Part shown: piece by piece, positions 30,201 through 38,337 of the stretch
How positions within the stretch are numbered: the stretch's first letter is position 1
Layout: each line of letters begins with the position of its first letter
From: Candidatus Eisenbacteria bacterium
GTDB lineage: Bacteria; Eisenbacteria; RBG-16-71-46; SZUA-252
Reading direction: 5' to 3'
NCBI GenBank assembly: GCA_005893275.1
Contig: VBOW01000067.1
Coordinates: 1 to 53,592, forward strand
DNA: 53,592 nucleotides
Translations under genes and position numbers: made by a program
The notes under the pieces: model-generated
Told to the model about the DNA's origin: nothing
What the model saw: only the letters and a program-made list of their open reading frames with translations
Databases searched by the model: none

Positions 30201-32477
30201 ATGGGGGCTTTTCCGCCAAACCATATGAAGACCGGGAAATCGAGATCGAAGGCGCCCTCGGGCGGCCTCGCGCAGGCCCCGTCGGGGCAGCCGAGCCCGC
30301 TGGACATCCGCCGGGGATACATGGTCATGACGGCGCTCGCCGCCGGCTTGGCCGGGCTCGCGGTCTATGGCGTCGCGGCGCACGTTACGGAGCAGCTTCG
30401 TCAGGAGGGGCGAATTAGGGTCGCGGCCCTGGCCGCGACGATCGCGGCGGGCATTCCCGCCGAAGAGGTCCGCGCGCTCAGAGCGCGCCAGTCCGAGGCG
30501 GGCGCGGAATACGAGGCCCTGCGTTCTCGTCTCGTCACGGCCCGTCAGGCCAATCCGGACGTGCGCCGCGCCTACGCCCTCATTCCAGGCAAATCGGCGG
30601 GCCCCTGGCGCTACGCGCTCGAGGCGGGCACCGATCCTACGCGAAAGGTCCACGCCGGCGACCTCTACGAAGGGGGCGGGCGACGGGAAATCGCGGCCGC
30701 GCTCGACGGTCCGACGGCGAGCCGGGCGCTCTCGCGCGATCCGCGCGGAAGCTGGCTCAGCGGGTACGCTCCGATCCGGGACCTCAAGGGGAGGGCGATC
30801 GCGATCGTCGGCGTGGACGTGGGCTCCGGGCTGGCGCTTGTGTCCGAGCGGCGATTCCGCGTGGAGACCGCGCTCGCCTATGCGCTCGCGTTCTGCGGGA
30901 TCGCCTTCACGGGGTTTCACCGCTACCAGAAGCGGCGGCTCGAGCTGGAGCGGAACCGCAACATCCATGTCCGGCTGAGCATCCACCGGCTGGCCGAAGC
31001 GATGACCCGCGCGGGCGTGGAATCGGACCTGGCACGACACGCGCTCGACGCGATGGCCGAGGGCACAGGGTTTGCCCATTGGGCGCTCTTCAAGCGCGAC
31101 CGGGACAAGGGGACGCTCGCCCTCTTCGCTACCCGAGGGCTGAACGAGCAGGCGCGTCTCGAGCTCACTCCGGACCCGATCGGCCCCGACTCCTCGTCCC
31201 TCGCGAGCCGCGCCGCGTTCCGCCGCGAGGCCGTGACGGGGAGGAGCGGCGACGGCTCCACGCGACACGCGTTCGCGGGGGAGATCGCCGACTTGGGCCA
31301 GGACCCCAACGTGTGCGCCGTGCCTGTGGTCGAGCACGACGAAACGACGGCCGTGCTCCAGTGCTTCGCTCCGGCTTCGCGCCGATTCGGCGCGGAGGAC
31401 GTGACCCTCATCCGCTGGATGGCCGCCCAGCTCGGGCACGGTCTCAAGAGAATCCAGCTCGAATCGCGCGATCAGCTCCTCGCCTCCTACATGCGGAGCA
31501 CCGACGAGATGCTGGTGGGATTCGATCTCGACGGGGAGGTCACCTACGCCAACCCGGCCGCCCTGCGCTCGCTCTCCGATTCCCGAGGGAGCCTTCACGG
31601 ACGCGGGATCAACGGGCTGTTCCTGGTCTCGGAGAGACCGGGCGCGGCTCCCCTTCTCGCCGTCCTGCGCGGAGCGGGTGGCTTCTCGGGGGAGCTCATT
31701 TGCTGCACGGAGCCCGGGACCAAGTTCCCGGCGGAAGCCACCGTCACGAAAGCCGTCGATCGCGAGGGGAACGAAAGCGCCTGGGTCCTCGTCGGGCGGG
31801 ATATCAGCGAGCGGCGCGAGCGGGAGCACGAGATTCAGACCCGGACCGAGCAGCTCGAGCTGATCAACGAGCAGCTCCAGCACGCGAACGACGGTCTGGC
31901 CGAAGCCAACCGGACGAAGAACGAGTTCCTCGCGAACACAAGCCACGAGCTCCGGACGCCCCTGAACGCCGTGATCGGATTCGCGACGTTGATCGAGCAG
32001 AACGTGGCCCAATCGGAGGAGGAGCGTTTCTCTTTCGCCCGCTCGATCCGGGAGAGCGCCGAGCACCTGCTCGTCGTCATCAATGACATCCTGGACCTGG
32101 CCAAGGTGGAAGCGGGACGGCTGGAACTCGCTCTGGAGGCTGGAGATGCGACCCCGACCATCCTGGCGGCGGTCGAGACACAGCGGGCCGTGGCTCTCCG
32201 GAAAGGGATCAGGCTCGAGGTCGAGACTCCGGCCGAACCCCTGCAGATGCAACTCGATCCGGCCCGGCTCCGTCAGGTGCTCCTAAACCTGCTTGGGAAC
32301 GCGGTCAAGTTTACCGATAAAGGTGAAGTGAGGATCAAGGCGCGGCGAAACGCGAGCCCCGCCGAAATCCATATCGTGGTCGAGGACACGGGGATCGGGA
32401 TCGCGAAACGCGACCAGTCCCGTCTCTTCGTGAAGTTCTCCCAGGTGGACGGTTCCTACAAGCGCCGCCACCAGTGA
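30201..32477 (+). CDS. Large sensor histidine kinase, interrupted by an in-frame TGA in the ATPase G2 box
   Basis: 758 aa before the stop. TM1 is at about 40-62, a periplasmic CACHE-like sensor at about 63-215 (SGYAPIRDLKGRAIAIVGVD), and TM2 at about 222-242. A GAF-like domain (about 265-420) and a PAS domain (about 430-540, VGFDLDGEVTYANPAA) follow, then a coiled coil and HisKA with His582 (NTSHELRTPLNAVIGFA). The HATPase N box (NLLGNAVKFT), G1 (EDTGIGI) and F region (FVKFSQVDGSYKRRHQ) come last. TGA 32475-32477 then replaces the codon expected for the Gly of GTGLGL. The same frame continues correctly beyond it. As read, the ATP lid is lost and the kinase should be inactive unless the stop is an error or is read through. 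Confidence 0.85.
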   Translation: MGAFPPNHMKTGKSRSKAPSGGLAQAPSGQPSPLDIRRGYMVMTALAAGLAGLAVYGVAAHVTEQLRQEGRIRVAALAATIAAGIPAEEVRALRARQSEAGAEYEALRSRLVTARQANPDVRRAYALIPGKSAGPWRYALEAGTDPTRKVHAGDLYEGGGRREIAAALDGPTASRALSRDPRGSWLSGYAPIRDLKGRAIAIVGVDVGSGLALVSERRFRVETALAYALAFCGIAFTGFHRYQKRRLELERNRNIHVRLSIHRLAEAMTRAGVESDLARHALDAMAEGTGFAHWALFKRDRDKGTLALFATRGLNEQARLELTPDPIGPDSSSLASRAAFRREAVTGRSGDGSTRHAFAGEIADLGQDPNVCAVPVVEHDETTAVLQCFAPASRRFGAEDVTLIRWMAAQLGHGLKRIQLESRDQLLASYMRSTDEMLVGFDLDGEVTYANPAALRSLSDSRGSLHGRGINGLFLVSERPGAAPLLAVLRGAGGFSGELICCTEPGTKFPAEATVTKAVDREGNESAWVLVGRDISERREREHEIQTRTEQLELINEQLQHANDGLAEANRTKNEFLANTSHELRTPLNAVIGFATLIEQNVAQSEEERFSFARSIRESAEHLLVVINDILDLAKVEAGRLELALEAGDATPTILAAVETQRAVALRKGIRLEVETPAEPLQMQLDPARLRQVLLNLLGNAVKFTDKGEVRIKARRNASPAEIHIVVEDTGIGIAKRDQSRLFVKFSQVDGSYKRRHQ

Positions 32478-33748: not shown

Positions 33749-34387
33749 CTACCCGAGCCCCACCATCGGGTAGATCCAGTCCAAGATCAGGAAGTTGAGG
33801 CGGCCGATGAGGAGCGCCACGCGCCCCATCACGGTGAAGCCGAACGCGGCTCCGAAGGAGATCATGAGGAACCAGATTCCCAGGCGCGCGACGCGCCTCG
33901 TGACTTGGTCCTGCTCCTTGGAGAAGAAGAAGTAGATCAGCACGCTGAAGACGCCCAGGGCGAAAATCAGGGAATAGAAGATCGTGTGCGAATCGAAGTG
34001 CGTGAGCGGAACGATCGCCCTCGCGAGCTGTGGGAGCACTTCGCCGTGGATTCTGCGCGTGAAATCGAGCCCGATGTAATACGCGACGTAGATCGAAAGC
34101 GCGAAGCGTGAGATCCAGGCGATCTTGGGCACGTACCGCATGTAGAGAAGGACGCCGAGCAGCCCCGGAACCAAGAGATCCCAATTCTGCCGGAAGTCCT
34201 GAAACAGAGGCTGGATGAGGTTCGGCACGAGCGTCTGATTCAGCGTAACCCCGATGAAGTAGCCGAGGGAGATGCCCGCGAAGAGGCTCTCCGCGAACCG
34301 GAAAAGGGGATTGTCCTTGTAGAGAAAGCTCATGCACGCGAGCGTGAGGAGCGCGGCGATCCAGGTTTCGAGGCCCGGAATATGCAC
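33749..34387 (-). CDS. Polytopic membrane protein of the four-gene unit (about 6 TM), unknown function
   Basis: 212 aa, about six to seven TM helices, starting WIAALLTLACMSFLYKDNPLF and RFAESLFAGISLGYFIGVTL. Between helices are short polar loops with conserved-looking charged motifs (YKDNPLFRFAES; MRYVPKIAWISRF). It ends LDWIYPMVGLG. The start is GTG 34387, with AAGGGAG 10 nt upstream, 2 nt after the previous gene's stop. It is the last gene of the unit and converges on the receiver-DHp gene. I do not recognise a described family. Confidence 0.75.
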   Translation of the reverse strand: MHIPGLETWIAALLTLACMSFLYKDNPLFRFAESLFAGISLGYFIGVTLNQTLVPNLIQPLFQDFRQNWDLLVPGLLGVLLYMRYVPKIAWISRFALSIYVAYYIGLDFTRRIHGEVLPQLARAIVPLTHFDSHTIFYSLIFALGVFSVLIYFFFSKEQDQVTRRVARLGIWFLMISFGAAFGFTVMGRVALLIGRLNFLILDWIYPMVGLG

Positions 34388-34389
34388 CG

Positions 34390-35268
34390 CTAGGCTCCCT
34401 TCCTCTGCGCCGCGCGCCGGCTAAGGTACGCGACGTTCCCGATCAAGATGAACAGGATGATGACCGCGTGGGTCACCGCTTGCCCGTCCATTCCTTTGGT
34501 CGCGGTGAATCCACGGGTGCTTTGGTAAAAGCGCGCCAGGTCCGGGTAGCGCGCCGCGAGCAGCTTCTCGTACTCGGCCGCTCCCTTCATGCCCCCCAGC
34601 ATGCCCACGAGCTGGCCCGCGTTCAGGTAGGCGTAGTACTTCGGAGCGCTCACCGCCGTGGGTCCGATGATGACCGGGGTTCCGATCTGGGAGTGGACCT
34701 GGGTGATCCACCACTCCCCGATGATGCCCGTCGCGGCCGTGAAGACGAGCTGTACCTGCCGGATACTACGGAGCCCTTGCATCATGGGAACCTGTGCGAG
34801 TGGCCTCCCCTTCACGTCCGTCGGGAACGCTCCCGCAATATCCTCGCCCAAGCGCCTCATCACCGCGGAGGCCCCGTCCTTGTAACCCAGGTTCACGTAC
34901 TCCTCGCCGTAGCGCAGGTTGGGAAACTCGGCGGTCACTTTCGCGAGCGAATTGGTCGCGAGACCCAGGCCTCCCAGCGGATAGAGCGCACATACGATCA
35001 CCCGGATCTTTTTCGTGAAGCATTGGCGCATGATCGCTTCAGCCATGGGATCGTTCTCGGGGGCGGAGGACGGACCGTAATCGAAGGAGACCCAGACGTA
35101 GTCCCCCGGCTTCAGCGATTCGATGTAGTCGAAGGCCGCGCGGGTCGAGCCGGTTGTCGTGACGGGGAGCCCGATCGGCAGGACGATCGGGGTGCCGACG
35201 CAGATCAGCACGAACAAGAAGATCCATCGCCGATCGAGGCCCAGGAGCTTGTCGACCATCCCCGCCAT
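34390..35268 (-). CDS. Twin-anchored alpha/beta protein of the four-gene unit, unknown function
   Basis: 292 aa. An N-terminal TM helix (about 14-36, WIFLFVLICVGTPIVLPIGL) and a C-terminal TM helix (about 268-285, HAVIILFILIGNVAYLS) flank a soluble domain of about 230 residues, probably extracytoplasmic. That domain starts GDYVWVSFDYGPSSAPENDP and has Rossmann-like alternating strands (KKIRVIVCALYPLGGLGLA; VQLVFTAATGIIGEWWIT; PVIIGPTAVSAPKYYAYLNA). ATG 35268 has GAGAGGGG upstream and lies 1 nt after the previous stop. The fold suggests ligand binding, but no catalytic motif is evident. Confidence 0.75.
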   Translation of the reverse strand: MAGMVDKLLGLDRRWIFLFVLICVGTPIVLPIGLPVTTTGSTRAAFDYIESLKPGDYVWVSFDYGPSSAPENDPMAEAIMRQCFTKKIRVIVCALYPLGGLGLATNSLAKVTAEFPNLRYGEEYVNLGYKDGASAVMRRLGEDIAGAFPTDVKGRPLAQVPMMQGLRSIRQVQLVFTAATGIIGEWWITQVHSQIGTPVIIGPTAVSAPKYYAYLNAGQLVGMLGGMKGAAEYEKLLAARYPDLARFYQSTRGFTATKGMDGQAVTHAVIILFILIGNVAYLSRRAAQRKGA

Positions 35269-35269
35269 G

Positions 35270-36070
35270 TTATTCCCCTCTCCCCAACCCGAGATAGCCG
35301 CGCTCGATCCCGAGGATGACCCGGATCGCCATCGAGGATGCGCCGAGCGCCGCGCCGATGATGATCCCGGACTGAGCAGCGCCGTTCGGCGTGTCCATGA
35401 TCCACTCCGTCAGCTTCCCGAGCGCCTGGGTGGCGGCCGCGGCCGCCGGGTGGAGCGGCGGGAACGGCGCCGCCAGGAAATCGAGAAGGGGAACGCGCCC
35501 CGCCATGACGACCCCGCCCGCGAGCAGAAGGATCGTCGCCTCGGTGTTCCTGGCCCGAAACGCCCGGAACGCGGCGGACGCCATGAAGAACGCGAGAAGC
35601 GCGAAGATCGTGGACTGGAGCGGCTGAAAGAATTGATCCTGGATCCACTTGAATGGCGTCGGCGTTCCGTCCGCCAGGAAGGTGATCCCCTTGCGTGACA
35701 TCGCGCCATAAATCCCCGAGCCTCCCGTGACGAAGAGCCCGAGCAGAAGGACGATGGAGAAGGGCCATCCGGATTCGCGCCGCGCGACCTTGCGCGTGCT
35801 GTTCTGGAGGACGTTCACCACCCCGAGCAGAATCGCGAAGGCGTAGACGATGATGAGCCATTGGTCGAGCCGTGGGCTCATCCCGGTCGGGCCGGAGAGG
35901 AATTTCTTCGGGACGTAGAGCGAGATGATCGGGATCGCGCCGGCGAAGAAGCCCACGAAGAGCGGGAGCCTCGCCCTGAGTCCGGGGGAGCCGATCCCGA
36001 GAGCGATGCCAACGACCGGGATGATCGCGAAGAGGAAGACGAGAGCAACGCGGCCGAATTCGAGATTCAT
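35270..36070 (-). CDS. Polytopic membrane protein of the four-gene unit (about 8 TM), unknown function
   Basis: 266 aa with about eight TM segments (VALVFLFAIIPVVGIALGIG at the start; LPLFVGFFAGAIPIISLYVP; LIIVYAFAILLGVVNVLQ; FSIVLLLGLFVTGGSGIYG). A central loop has FKWIQDQFFQPLQSTIFALL, and a C-terminal helix is followed by LGIERGYLGLGRGE. ATG 36070 has GGAG upstream. It is spaced 22 nt from the FN3-bearing gene and 1 nt from the twin-anchored gene, so the three are certainly co-transcribed. No known transporter signature is visible. Confidence 0.75.
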   Translation of the reverse strand: MNLEFGRVALVFLFAIIPVVGIALGIGSPGLRARLPLFVGFFAGAIPIISLYVPKKFLSGPTGMSPRLDQWLIIVYAFAILLGVVNVLQNSTRKVARRESGWPFSIVLLLGLFVTGGSGIYGAMSRKGITFLADGTPTPFKWIQDQFFQPLQSTIFALLAFFMASAAFRAFRARNTEATILLLAGGVVMAGRVPLLDFLAAPFPPLHPAAAAATQALGKLTEWIMDTPNGAAQSGIIIGAALGASSMAIRVILGIERGYLGLGRGE

Positions 36071-36092
36071 GGCGTCTCCGCGCCCCGGGCGG

Positions 36093-37304
36093 TCATTGGG
36101 TCTTGAACAGAGCCGCGACCCAGGTCGCGCCCAGGCTCGCCGCGATGATCCCGGCGATCCCGAGCAGGATGACGATCGCCTTCGCGATGTCCTGCCCGCG
36201 CATCGAACCCAGGAGAACGGGCTCGCGGGTCAAGTAGGCGCTCGCCGCGTAGAGCTCTTCGCCGATCAGGGTGTAATCGCACGTCGCGACGAAAAACGGG
36301 AGCTGGGTCGGGTCCGCCTGGCCGGCAATCTGGATCGCCCCGGTCGACTGCCCCGTCTCCGCCAGGATCAGCGACTCCGCGAAGAAATAACCGATGAGAA
36401 AAATCGCGGCCGGCCGCTCGCGGATCATCCTCGCCGAGACAGCAGCGGTGAACGCGAACTGATCGTAGGTCACGTAGTTCACCATCTCTTCGCGGTAGAG
36501 GTCCGGCCTTCCCTCCGCGAGATAAGCCCCGCGAACGGCCTCCCGCGCCGAGGCGAAGGTGAGCGGATCCTTGTTTGGAACGTCGAGGTCGGTCCCGTAC
36601 CGCGCCGTGGCGCGCGCCACATGCCCCAGGATCGCGATCGACGCGATCGTCTGGATCTCGTCCATGCTCTGGACCCCGGGCACGTAGAGCACCTTCTTGC
36701 CGATCTCCGTGGCGCGGCCGATCGCCTCGTCCACCGCATTCAGCCCCGCGATCCGCCGGATGAAGATCTTCTTCCCGGATTTGGCGGCGGCGATCGATGC
36801 CAGCAAGATCACCAAGAAGAGCACTGAAGCGATGAAGGAGTTGGTCTTCTCAGGCCGGAACCAGTTGTCGTGCGAGGCGACCGGGTCGCTCACGACCGGC
36901 GGGCCGGCGCTGGAGGTATCGGCTGCCGAGACCGTGCGGATCTCGTATCGGTAGACGGTGCCGTCCTTCGCGGTGGTGTCCACGTAGCGCCCCACGCCGG
37001 GCTTCACCATTTCGATCTCGCTCCAGTCGTACGCGGGCGGCACGGCGCGGCGGATCTGGAGCCTCGCGCTGTCGCCGAGCCCGGGCGGATCCTTCCAGGT
37101 GAGAAGGATTGCGTTCCCCGAATCACCCGGACGATCCCCGGCGGTGAAGGAGGTCGGTGCCGGAAGGTCCGCGGGGGCGGCGGGGGATACCTCGGGCGCT
37201 ACGGCGAACGCGGAGCGCAAAAGGAGGACGAGAAGCGACGCGGTGAGCGGCGCTGCGAAGGACGGAACGCGCGCGGACGCGCGGCTCAGAACGCCGGTTC
37301 GCAT
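36093..37304 (-). CDS. FN3-bearing membrane protein, DUF6754-like, first gene of the four-gene membrane unit
   Basis: 403 aa. Signal sequence or TM at about 18-36. A fibronectin type III-like domain spans about 48-135 (NAILLTWKDPPGLGDSARLQI, cited in part; RYEIRTVSAAD). A TM helix at about 152-174 is followed by a cytoplasmic-looking domain with IRRIAGLNAVDEAIGRATE, KKVLYVPGVQSMDEIQTIAS and ARMIRERPAAIFLIGYFFAE. A last TM helix is at about 375-397. The VDEAIGRATE...LYVPG block recalls the family catalogued as DUF6754 (from memory, unchecked). Function unknown. The gene lies 10 nt after the methyltransferase. No clear Shine-Dalgarno precedes ATG 37304. Confidence 0.75.
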   Translation of the reverse strand: MRTGVLSRASARVPSFAAPLTASLLVLLLRSAFAVAPEVSPAAPADLPAPTSFTAGDRPGDSGNAILLTWKDPPGLGDSARLQIRRAVPPAYDWSEIEMVKPGVGRYVDTTAKDGTVYRYEIRTVSAADTSSAGPPVVSDPVASHDNWFRPEKTNSFIASVLFLVILLASIAAAKSGKKIFIRRIAGLNAVDEAIGRATEIGKKVLYVPGVQSMDEIQTIASIAILGHVARATARYGTDLDVPNKDPLTFASAREAVRGAYLAEGRPDLYREEMVNYVTYDQFAFTAAVSARMIRERPAAIFLIGYFFAESLILAETGQSTGAIQIAGQADPTQLPFFVATCDYTLIGEELYAASAYLTREPVLLGSMRGQDIAKAIVILLGIAGIIAASLGATWVAALFKTQ

Positions 37305-37314
37305 CGGCGCGAGA

Positions 37315-38337
37315 CTATGAGACGCCGGCGGAGGGTGTCAACACGGGTTTTCGCCCCCGAAGCCGCATGATCGGCCAGACGTAGACGGAGAGAGGGGGTA
37401 GGAGCGAGCAGAAGAAGCGAAGGACGTCCTTCACCCACTGGCGCGGATTGTTCTCGATCTTCCTCGAAAAAAAGGCGGGAAGCAGCTCCGGCTTGAGCCC
37501 CGCCTCCCGAAACTTCCGCATGAGCCAGAAGGGGCTCAGCTCCCGCTCGGGGTATTGACCATCGATCGGATGCCGGTAGAGAAAGGCGGGACGGGCGCTG
37601 ATGAGGCGAGATTCCCGGTATTCCCGGACCGCGCTCAAAATCTCCTTCCCGACCAAGCCCCGCGTGAGCCGGGCCGCTTCGAGCAACTCGTTTCCCGTGA
37701 TTTGCGGAAAATGCTCTTCGATGAGCGCCAAACGGGCGGCGAAGTAGGGCCCGTTGGGTTCCGCTTCCATTTGGCGCCATCCCCGCCGGCGCCTGGGGCG
37801 CGCGGGCAGGTAAAGGGAATTGTTTTCATCGCTCAGGAAGAAGACGCCTCCCGGCCGGAGCAGGCGGTGCGCCTCGGCCAGAAATCCTTCCAGATCGCGC
37901 ACGTGAGAGATGACGCAGTTCGCCATCACCCCGTCGAAGCTCGCCGAAGGGAATTGCATCGCGATGCCGTCTCCATATTTCGATTCGAAGTTCGTCATCG
38001 GAGGATCCATGCGCTCGGCCAAGTACCGGCCCACTTCGACCATGTCCTGATCGATTTCGGTCGCGACGACACGGCGCGCCCCGTACATCGCCACGAGAAG
38101 CGCCTCGAGCCCGAAGCCCGCGCCCAGGTCAAGGACGTCTTTGCTCTCCGCCTCGAGATAGCGGTACATGTCGCGCGCCTTCTGGAAGAGATGCTCGATC
38201 CGGGGGGGATTCCGTATAATGCGGAGGTACGTGTAGTACGTCAGGAAGTATTCGGGGAACTGCGCGCGAATCCCCTCGTCGCTCTGCATGAGAATCGCGC
38301 GCAGCGAGGCGAGACGGCGCTCGGCCAGAGACGCCAC
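37315..38337 (-). CDS. Class I SAM-dependent methyltransferase
   Basis: 340 aa. Motif I is VLDLGAGFGLEALLVA (near 88), followed by VVATEIDQDMVEVGRYLAE (motif II, acidic), SFDGVMANCVISHVRDLEGF (motif IV/V) and LLRPGGVFFLSDENNS. An extended C-terminus (from about 190) carries arginine-rich and hydrophobic segments, including SLLPPLSVYVWPIMRLRGRK near the end, which may sit at the membrane. Substrate unknown. The gene lies 16 nt after the GAF/sigma-54 regulator and 10 nt before the FN3 membrane gene, so it belongs to that operon. Confidence 0.82.
   Translation of the reverse strand: MASLAERRLASLRAILMQSDEGIRAQFPEYFLTYYTYLRIIRNPPRIEHLFQKARDMYRYLEAESKDVLDLGAGFGLEALLVAMYGARRVVATEIDQDMVEVGRYLAERMDPPMTNFESKYGDGIAMQFPSASFDGVMANCVISHVRDLEGFLAEAHRLLRPGGVFFLSDENNSLYLPARPRRRRGWRQMEAEPNGPYFAARLALIEEHFPQITGNELLEAARLTRGLVGKEILSAVREYRESRLISARPAFLYRHPIDGQYPERELSPFWLMRKFREAGLKPELLPAFFSRKIENNPRQWVKDVLRFFCSLLPPLSVYVWPIMRLRGRKPVLTPSAGVS

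Follow-up and report, generated by a model that had tools for sequence, protein, structure and literature searches.

A four-gene locus on the minus strand

The window analyzed here is the whole 53,592-nucleotide stretch of contig VBOW01000067.1 from a Candidatus Eisenbacteria bacterium (assembly GCA_005893275.1). Between positions 33749 and 37304, it carries four tightly packed minus-strand genes, P1 to P4, separated by gaps of 22, 1, and 2 nt, an ORF reading that agrees with the first-pass annotation of this DNA. The features of the locus are as follows.

37314..37341 (-), candidate sigma-70-like promoter TTGACA-16-CATAGT, matching the consensus at 10/12 positions, directly ahead of P1
36093..37304 (-), P1, 403 aa: signal-like segment, FN3 domain, transmembrane (TM) helix, predicted cytoplasmic DUF6754 (PF20539), C-terminal TM helix
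36927..37154 (-), FN3 domain of P1, residues ~51-126, predicted extracytoplasmic
36108..36872 (-), DUF6754 domain of P1, residues 145-399
35270..36070 (-), P2, 266 aa, integral membrane protein
34390..35268 (-), P3, 292 aa: TM helix, Rossmann-like alpha/beta domain (~35151-34519, predicted extracytoplasmic), TM helix
33749..34387 (-), P4, 212 aa, GTG start, integral membrane protein

The sigma-70-like sequence is only suggestive as a P1 promoter; about 0.6 such matches would be expected in the region by chance. It lies within the 3' end of the upstream methyltransferase gene and ends ~10 nt ahead of the P1 start codon, and the message would be almost leaderless. An Rfam scan of the window gave no match.

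In addition to the methyltransferase gene, the window copy of the unit adjoins sigma-54 and two-component genes, namely a GAF-sigma-54 activator and a histidine kinase/response regulator group. No hydrolase gene lies beside it. A PAS/GAF histidine kinase of the window (30201-32477 and following, plus strand) is interrupted by a TGA codon within its ATP-binding domain (RRHQ*TGLGL). The frame carries on without a shift after the TGA, and the ortholog on L019 (12540-15017) has no stop at this point and encodes 825 aa. Either a nonsense mutation or a sequencing error could account for the TGA.

Sequence and predicted structure of the four proteins

P1 is a full-length member of PF20539 (DUF6754; E 1.2e-111, 372.3 bits against a Pfam cut-off of 27, profile positions 2-256 of 257). 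PF20539 is a Pfam domain of unknown function that covers one of the four proteins, not the unit as a whole, and it is named in no paper within the literature searched, under either designation. The first-pass annotation had recognized no signature of a known transporter, secretion system, or enzyme in any of the proteins. This holds insofar as no characterized family was matched, but it has to be amended for P1, which carries this named, uncharacterized domain.

A profile search of the PDB places an FN3 domain in P1 (best match titin FN3, E 6e-8), and Foldseek agrees. Family-averaged hydropathy gives P1 a signal-like segment and TM helices at ~151-175 and ~362-390, in keeping with its initial description as an anchored protein with an FN3 and a cytoplasmic domain. 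Following the positive-inside rule, FN3 and the P3 domain are predicted to face outward and DUF6754 to face the cytoplasm. FN3 is missing from the Bacillota copies of P1 and is therefore accessory.

Across 109 sequences of P1, 26 positions are at least 93% identical. The invariant residues of DUF6754 include E193, R197, E200, R295, E310, E316, Q334, D343, Y344, E350, D372, and K375. No other stretch of the unit is as constant as residues 297-361, within DUF6754 (56% identity among the copies of the Bacillota genome G056). The P1 model (pLDDT 74.2) comprises FN3, a TM helix, an alpha/beta cytoplasmic domain, and a second TM helix, with the most conserved stretch poorly resolved. FN3 matches dominate the Foldseek list for this model, in which the DUF6754 part is partly of low confidence. 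The PDB sequence-profile search found no relative of DUF6754, matching P1 through FN3 only.

P2 and P4 are membrane proteins. P2, first described as an 8-TM protein, is indeed an integral membrane protein, but that count is slightly high, because the window copy has ~7 hydrophobic segments, of which the N-terminal one is confined to the window's clade; six are seen family-wide by averaged hydropathy. R169 of P2, within the SAAFRAFRARN motif, is invariant in the alignment. For P4, family-averaged hydropathy gives ~6 TM helices, as originally proposed. P3 was likewise read correctly as an alpha/beta domain held by TM helices at both ends: its model (m6be6340964a7; pLDDT 86.7, pTM 0.83) shows a Rossmann-like alpha/beta domain between two TM helices, and the distribution of charges predicts this domain to lie outside the membrane. 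Variation is highest in the first TM helix of P1, in FN3, and in the outer domain of P3 (31% identity in G056), while the membrane-near part of P3 (residues 216-262) is conserved.

None of P2, P3, and P4 matches a Pfam or NCBIfam family, including when the P2 and P3 alignments were scanned member by member. In the PDB sequence-profile search, P2 had no match, and those of P3 and P4 were at chance level; neither DUF6754 nor any of P2-P4 has a counterpart among solved structures. Foldseek with the P3 model returned generic Rossmann proteins only, none below E 1e-3, and no specific fold match. No Walker A motif is present in P1-P4, and neither a catalytic or cofactor motif nor a Pfam signaling output domain was recognized in them. 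By hhalign, P1 is not homologous to P3, nor P2 to P4.

An invariable gene order across distant bacteria

We identified 108 complete distinct units and 28 more in a later set, and all 136 are ordered P1-P2-P3-P4. They come from the window's phylum, Binatia, a Planctomycetota-labeled genome, and Bacillota. By record title, the taxa in which the unit was found are Eisenbacteria, Binatia, the Planctomycetota-labeled genome, an unclassified bacterium, and Bacillota. Even a very diverged copy (L178) keeps the order, its four proteins scoring 114, 89, 203, and 144 bits. One contig titled Latescibacterota (L020, JACQPZ010000039.1) was not counted as a further phylum, because its coordinates are identical to those of a same-genus relative of the window; it is the same genome, and its title is probably a taxonomic mislabel.

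DUF6754 is present in all 39 relatives searched, and the P3 profile recovers those same 39 genomes. Within the window's phylum, it occurs in 45 of 47 genomes and in every one of the 26 of good quality. When genomes were drawn evenly from the phylum of one Bacillota genome, 16 of 199 carried the unit. DUF6754 was found in none of 14 well-known control genomes and in none of the plasmids and phages searched. Apparently solitary P3 genes were explained by contig ends: all P3 matches without P1 sit there, leaving no solitary copies, and the incomplete units that were checked all end at contig edges.

The unit is amplified in some of these genomes. A 3.8 Mb Bacillota genome (G056) has 27 copies and a 1.4 Mb genome has 11. 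Nine copies each occur in two more genomes, one of them of 1.7 Mb; Eisenbacteria have up to seven, with three in the window's genome. Mean identity among the 24 complete paralogues of G056 is 44, 37, 35, and 38% for P1 to P4, and the paralogues are old. Tandem units, two or more head to tail, were also observed (L024/L145 and L089, L131, in the Planctomycetota-labeled and Bacillota genomes). Distances for P1-P4 are correlated, both within G056 alone (r 0.48-0.70) and across all units (0.80 to 0.85). The four genes have therefore been inherited as matched sets.

Strict co-occurrence, the absence of solitary copies, co-inherited paralogues, and the lack of any match to a characterized family uphold the first-pass proposal of one undescribed inner-membrane complex. 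The two findings that would have spoken against it, genes occurring separately in other genomes and matches to unrelated characterized families, did not emerge from the neighborhood comparison or from the Pfam, NCBIfam, PDB profile, and Foldseek searches, which returned only PF20539 and FN3 for P1 and generic Rossmann folds for P3. We infer contacts among the four proteins, which very probably form an obligatory complex. We regard the four-gene unit as an undescribed system, categorically new in sequence and fold; a transport role, if true, would be familiar.

Genomic neighbors of the unit

Neighbors of the unit are highly varied, and many copies adjoin housekeeping or regulatory genes. Our discovery set comprised five Bacillota genomes, with 17 distinct loci, counted by hand, in which P4 is closely followed by a gene of the same direction. 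At nine of these loci, scattered over the unit tree, the next co-directional gene encodes an amidohydrolase. Other Bacillota neighbors encode PxpA-type LamB_YcsF, M24, creatininase, urocanase, formiminotransferase (FTCD), AAT, DUF885, and TldD/PmbA. In the window's phylum, too, some copies are flanked by TldD/PmbA pairs (L039, and L043 by sequence). Peptidase M20 was considered as a linked family and rejected, because in the discovery genomes it showed no enrichment close to units.

The neighbor prediction, in a narrow and a broad form, was fixed before the independent test loci were read. The narrow form, an amidohydrolase directly downstream of the unit, fitted the discovery set but did not hold in the test set. 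Peptide- and amide-bond hydrolases, more broadly, accounted for 16 of the 85 test-set genes lying no more than two genes from a unit, versus 1 of the 59 at a distance of four genes or more (Fisher test, P = 0.001). When families that first came up in the test set are excluded, 11 of the 85 near genes remain (P = 0.013). The evidence for such enrichment is moderate, because the families were partly picked after looking and the annotated sets were small.

A second kind of context involves MutL (PF13941). One near-fixed Eisenbacteria paralogue has the arrangement gcvT-gcvH-gcvP-(138 aa)-(141 aa)-MutL-(375 aa)-P1-P2-P3-P4-lplA. In Bacillota, the order is P1-P2-P3-P4-MutL-u375 on L148 and L150 and P1-P2-P3-P4-MutL on L149. 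On L140, u375 (~370 aa) lies ahead of P1, with MutL ~2 kb further up. MutL and the ~370-aa protein, which has no Pfam match (for example, L036:11216-12343, minus strand), are linked to the unit across phyla, ahead of it in Eisenbacteria (once in each genome, in L036, L058, L062, L068, L073, and others) and behind it in Bacillota. The window copy, with its methyltransferase and regulator neighbors, represents a third kind of context.

A small conserved protein of ~140 aa with the motif PAIFFLESVKPLSFLGSQALHFFEP is encoded ~30 nt ahead of P1 in Binatia (L025-L028, L035). It is also linked to the unit in Eisenbacteria (L036:14206-14631, minus strand). This protein is a possible fifth component of the unit.

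A possible transport complex

We tentatively favor the interpretation that the unit acts as a substrate-specific transporter of small compounds of the amino-acid, amide, or peptide type, a reading that we hold at somewhat short of even probability, with both transport and the substrate class deduced indirectly. P1-P4 would assemble as one membrane complex, probably for uptake, in which P2 and P4 would make up the membrane channel. The Rossmann-like domain of P3 may select the substrate outside the membrane, and DUF6754 of P1 may couple or gate transport at the cytoplasmic face through its invariant charged residues. Because the unit encodes no ATPase, transport would draw on an ion gradient or on some unknown partner. 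The variable outer domain of P3 and the constant stretch 297-361 of P1 inside are as expected if specificity lies outside and mechanism inside.

Five features argue for transport at this guarded level: the strict unit, globular domains on both sides of a membrane architecture, the amplified paralogues, the contrast between the outer and inner domains, and the hydrolase neighbors. A transporter best fits the combination of amplification, an outside that varies while the inside stays constant, and catabolic neighbors of mixed kinds. Against it, homology or fold matches to any transporter are absent, and no energy-coupling component was found in the unit. The failure of the narrow neighbor prediction, the lack of M20 enrichment, the wide variety of neighbors, and the absence of a hydrolase beside the window copy also count against it.

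ABC/ECF importers share with the unit a multi-protein membrane assembly, an outside domain, and paralogous copies. Unlike the unit, they have an ABC ATPase with Walker A, of which no unit has any, and among the best ABC_tran matches listed in five genomes, no gene lies within 3 kb of a unit. TRAP/TTT tripartite transporters have several membrane subunits and an outside globular subunit, lack an ATPase, and are often amplified beside catabolic genes, all features with parallels in the unit. However, they have no sequence match to it: the TRAP/TTT Pfam models (the large ~12-TM permease, the small 4-TM subunit, and the soluble binding protein) gave no match in single-protein or family-wide scans. 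The unit also has no 12-TM subunit (~7 plus ~6 TM instead), its outside domain is held in the membrane at both ends, and it has in addition a conserved cytoplasmic domain. A somewhat bolder and slightly less probable proposal is that the unit represents an unrecognized class of multi-protein transporter, unrelated to ABC, TRAP, TTT, or known secondary carriers, with dozens of substrate-specific copies in certain uncultured Bacillota and a presence in nearly all Eisenbacteria.

It is also conceivable, if rather unlikely, that the unit is an enzyme complex bound to the membrane and active in amino-acid or amide metabolism. DUF6754, perhaps with the P3 domain, would then be catalytic on a product of the neighboring hydrolases, and P2 and P4 would serve as anchors or as an electron or ion path. 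The invariant charged and polar residues of DUF6754 occur at an enzyme-like density, and these dense E/R/D/Q/C residues could equally be an enzyme active site. The neighbors are catabolic enzymes, one Eisenbacteria paralogue sits in a gcvT-H-P/MutL/lplA cluster, and MutL and the ~370-aa protein flank the unit on Bacillota contigs L148-L150. Yet no catalytic motif, cofactor motif, or Walker A was recognized, 27 diverged copies of an enzyme are rarely needed in one genome, and the P3 domain lies, by prediction, outside the cell membrane.

Doubtful to a greater degree is a sensor or signaling complex, in which FN3 and P3 would perceive an outside signal and DUF6754 relay it inward. The regulators beside the window copy are consistent with such a role, as are the histidine kinase and sigma-54 response regulator genes that immediately follow the unit of L022 on its own strand and the two-component genes within two genes of some Bacillota copies. 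Most of the 136 units, however, have no adjoining regulator; DUF6754 is unlike known output domains; and the Bacillota copies do without FN3. The first-pass suggestion of a large extracytoplasmic sensing part is not supported in that form: FN3 is accessory, conservation is strongest in the cytoplasmic DUF6754, and the genomic context leans toward amino-acid or amide metabolism over sensing.

We consider it improbable that the unit serves protein or cofactor maintenance, for example with an ASKHA ATPase of the MutL/GlmL type and a system that depends on lipoyl or B12, the MutL-u375-unit arrangement being ancestral: c141-MutL-u375-P1-P2-P3-P4-lplA is conserved in one near-universal Eisenbacteria paralogue, with u375 and MutL near the unit on L140, L148, and L150 and MutL on L149, but both genes are missing from the window copy and from most of the Bacillota paralogues, and most Bacillota MutL genes are not near units.

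Of the four protein families, three were absent from every database searched, and the fourth is a domain of unknown function. If the unit is indeed a transporter class, it would explain substrate uptake in several poorly cultured fermentative or peptide-using lineages and provide a new family for structural work. If it is instead an enzyme or a sensor, it would still be a new membrane complex, with clear residues for testing. A unit this strict and widespread, near-universal in one phylum and present in up to 27 copies per genome, must have an important role.
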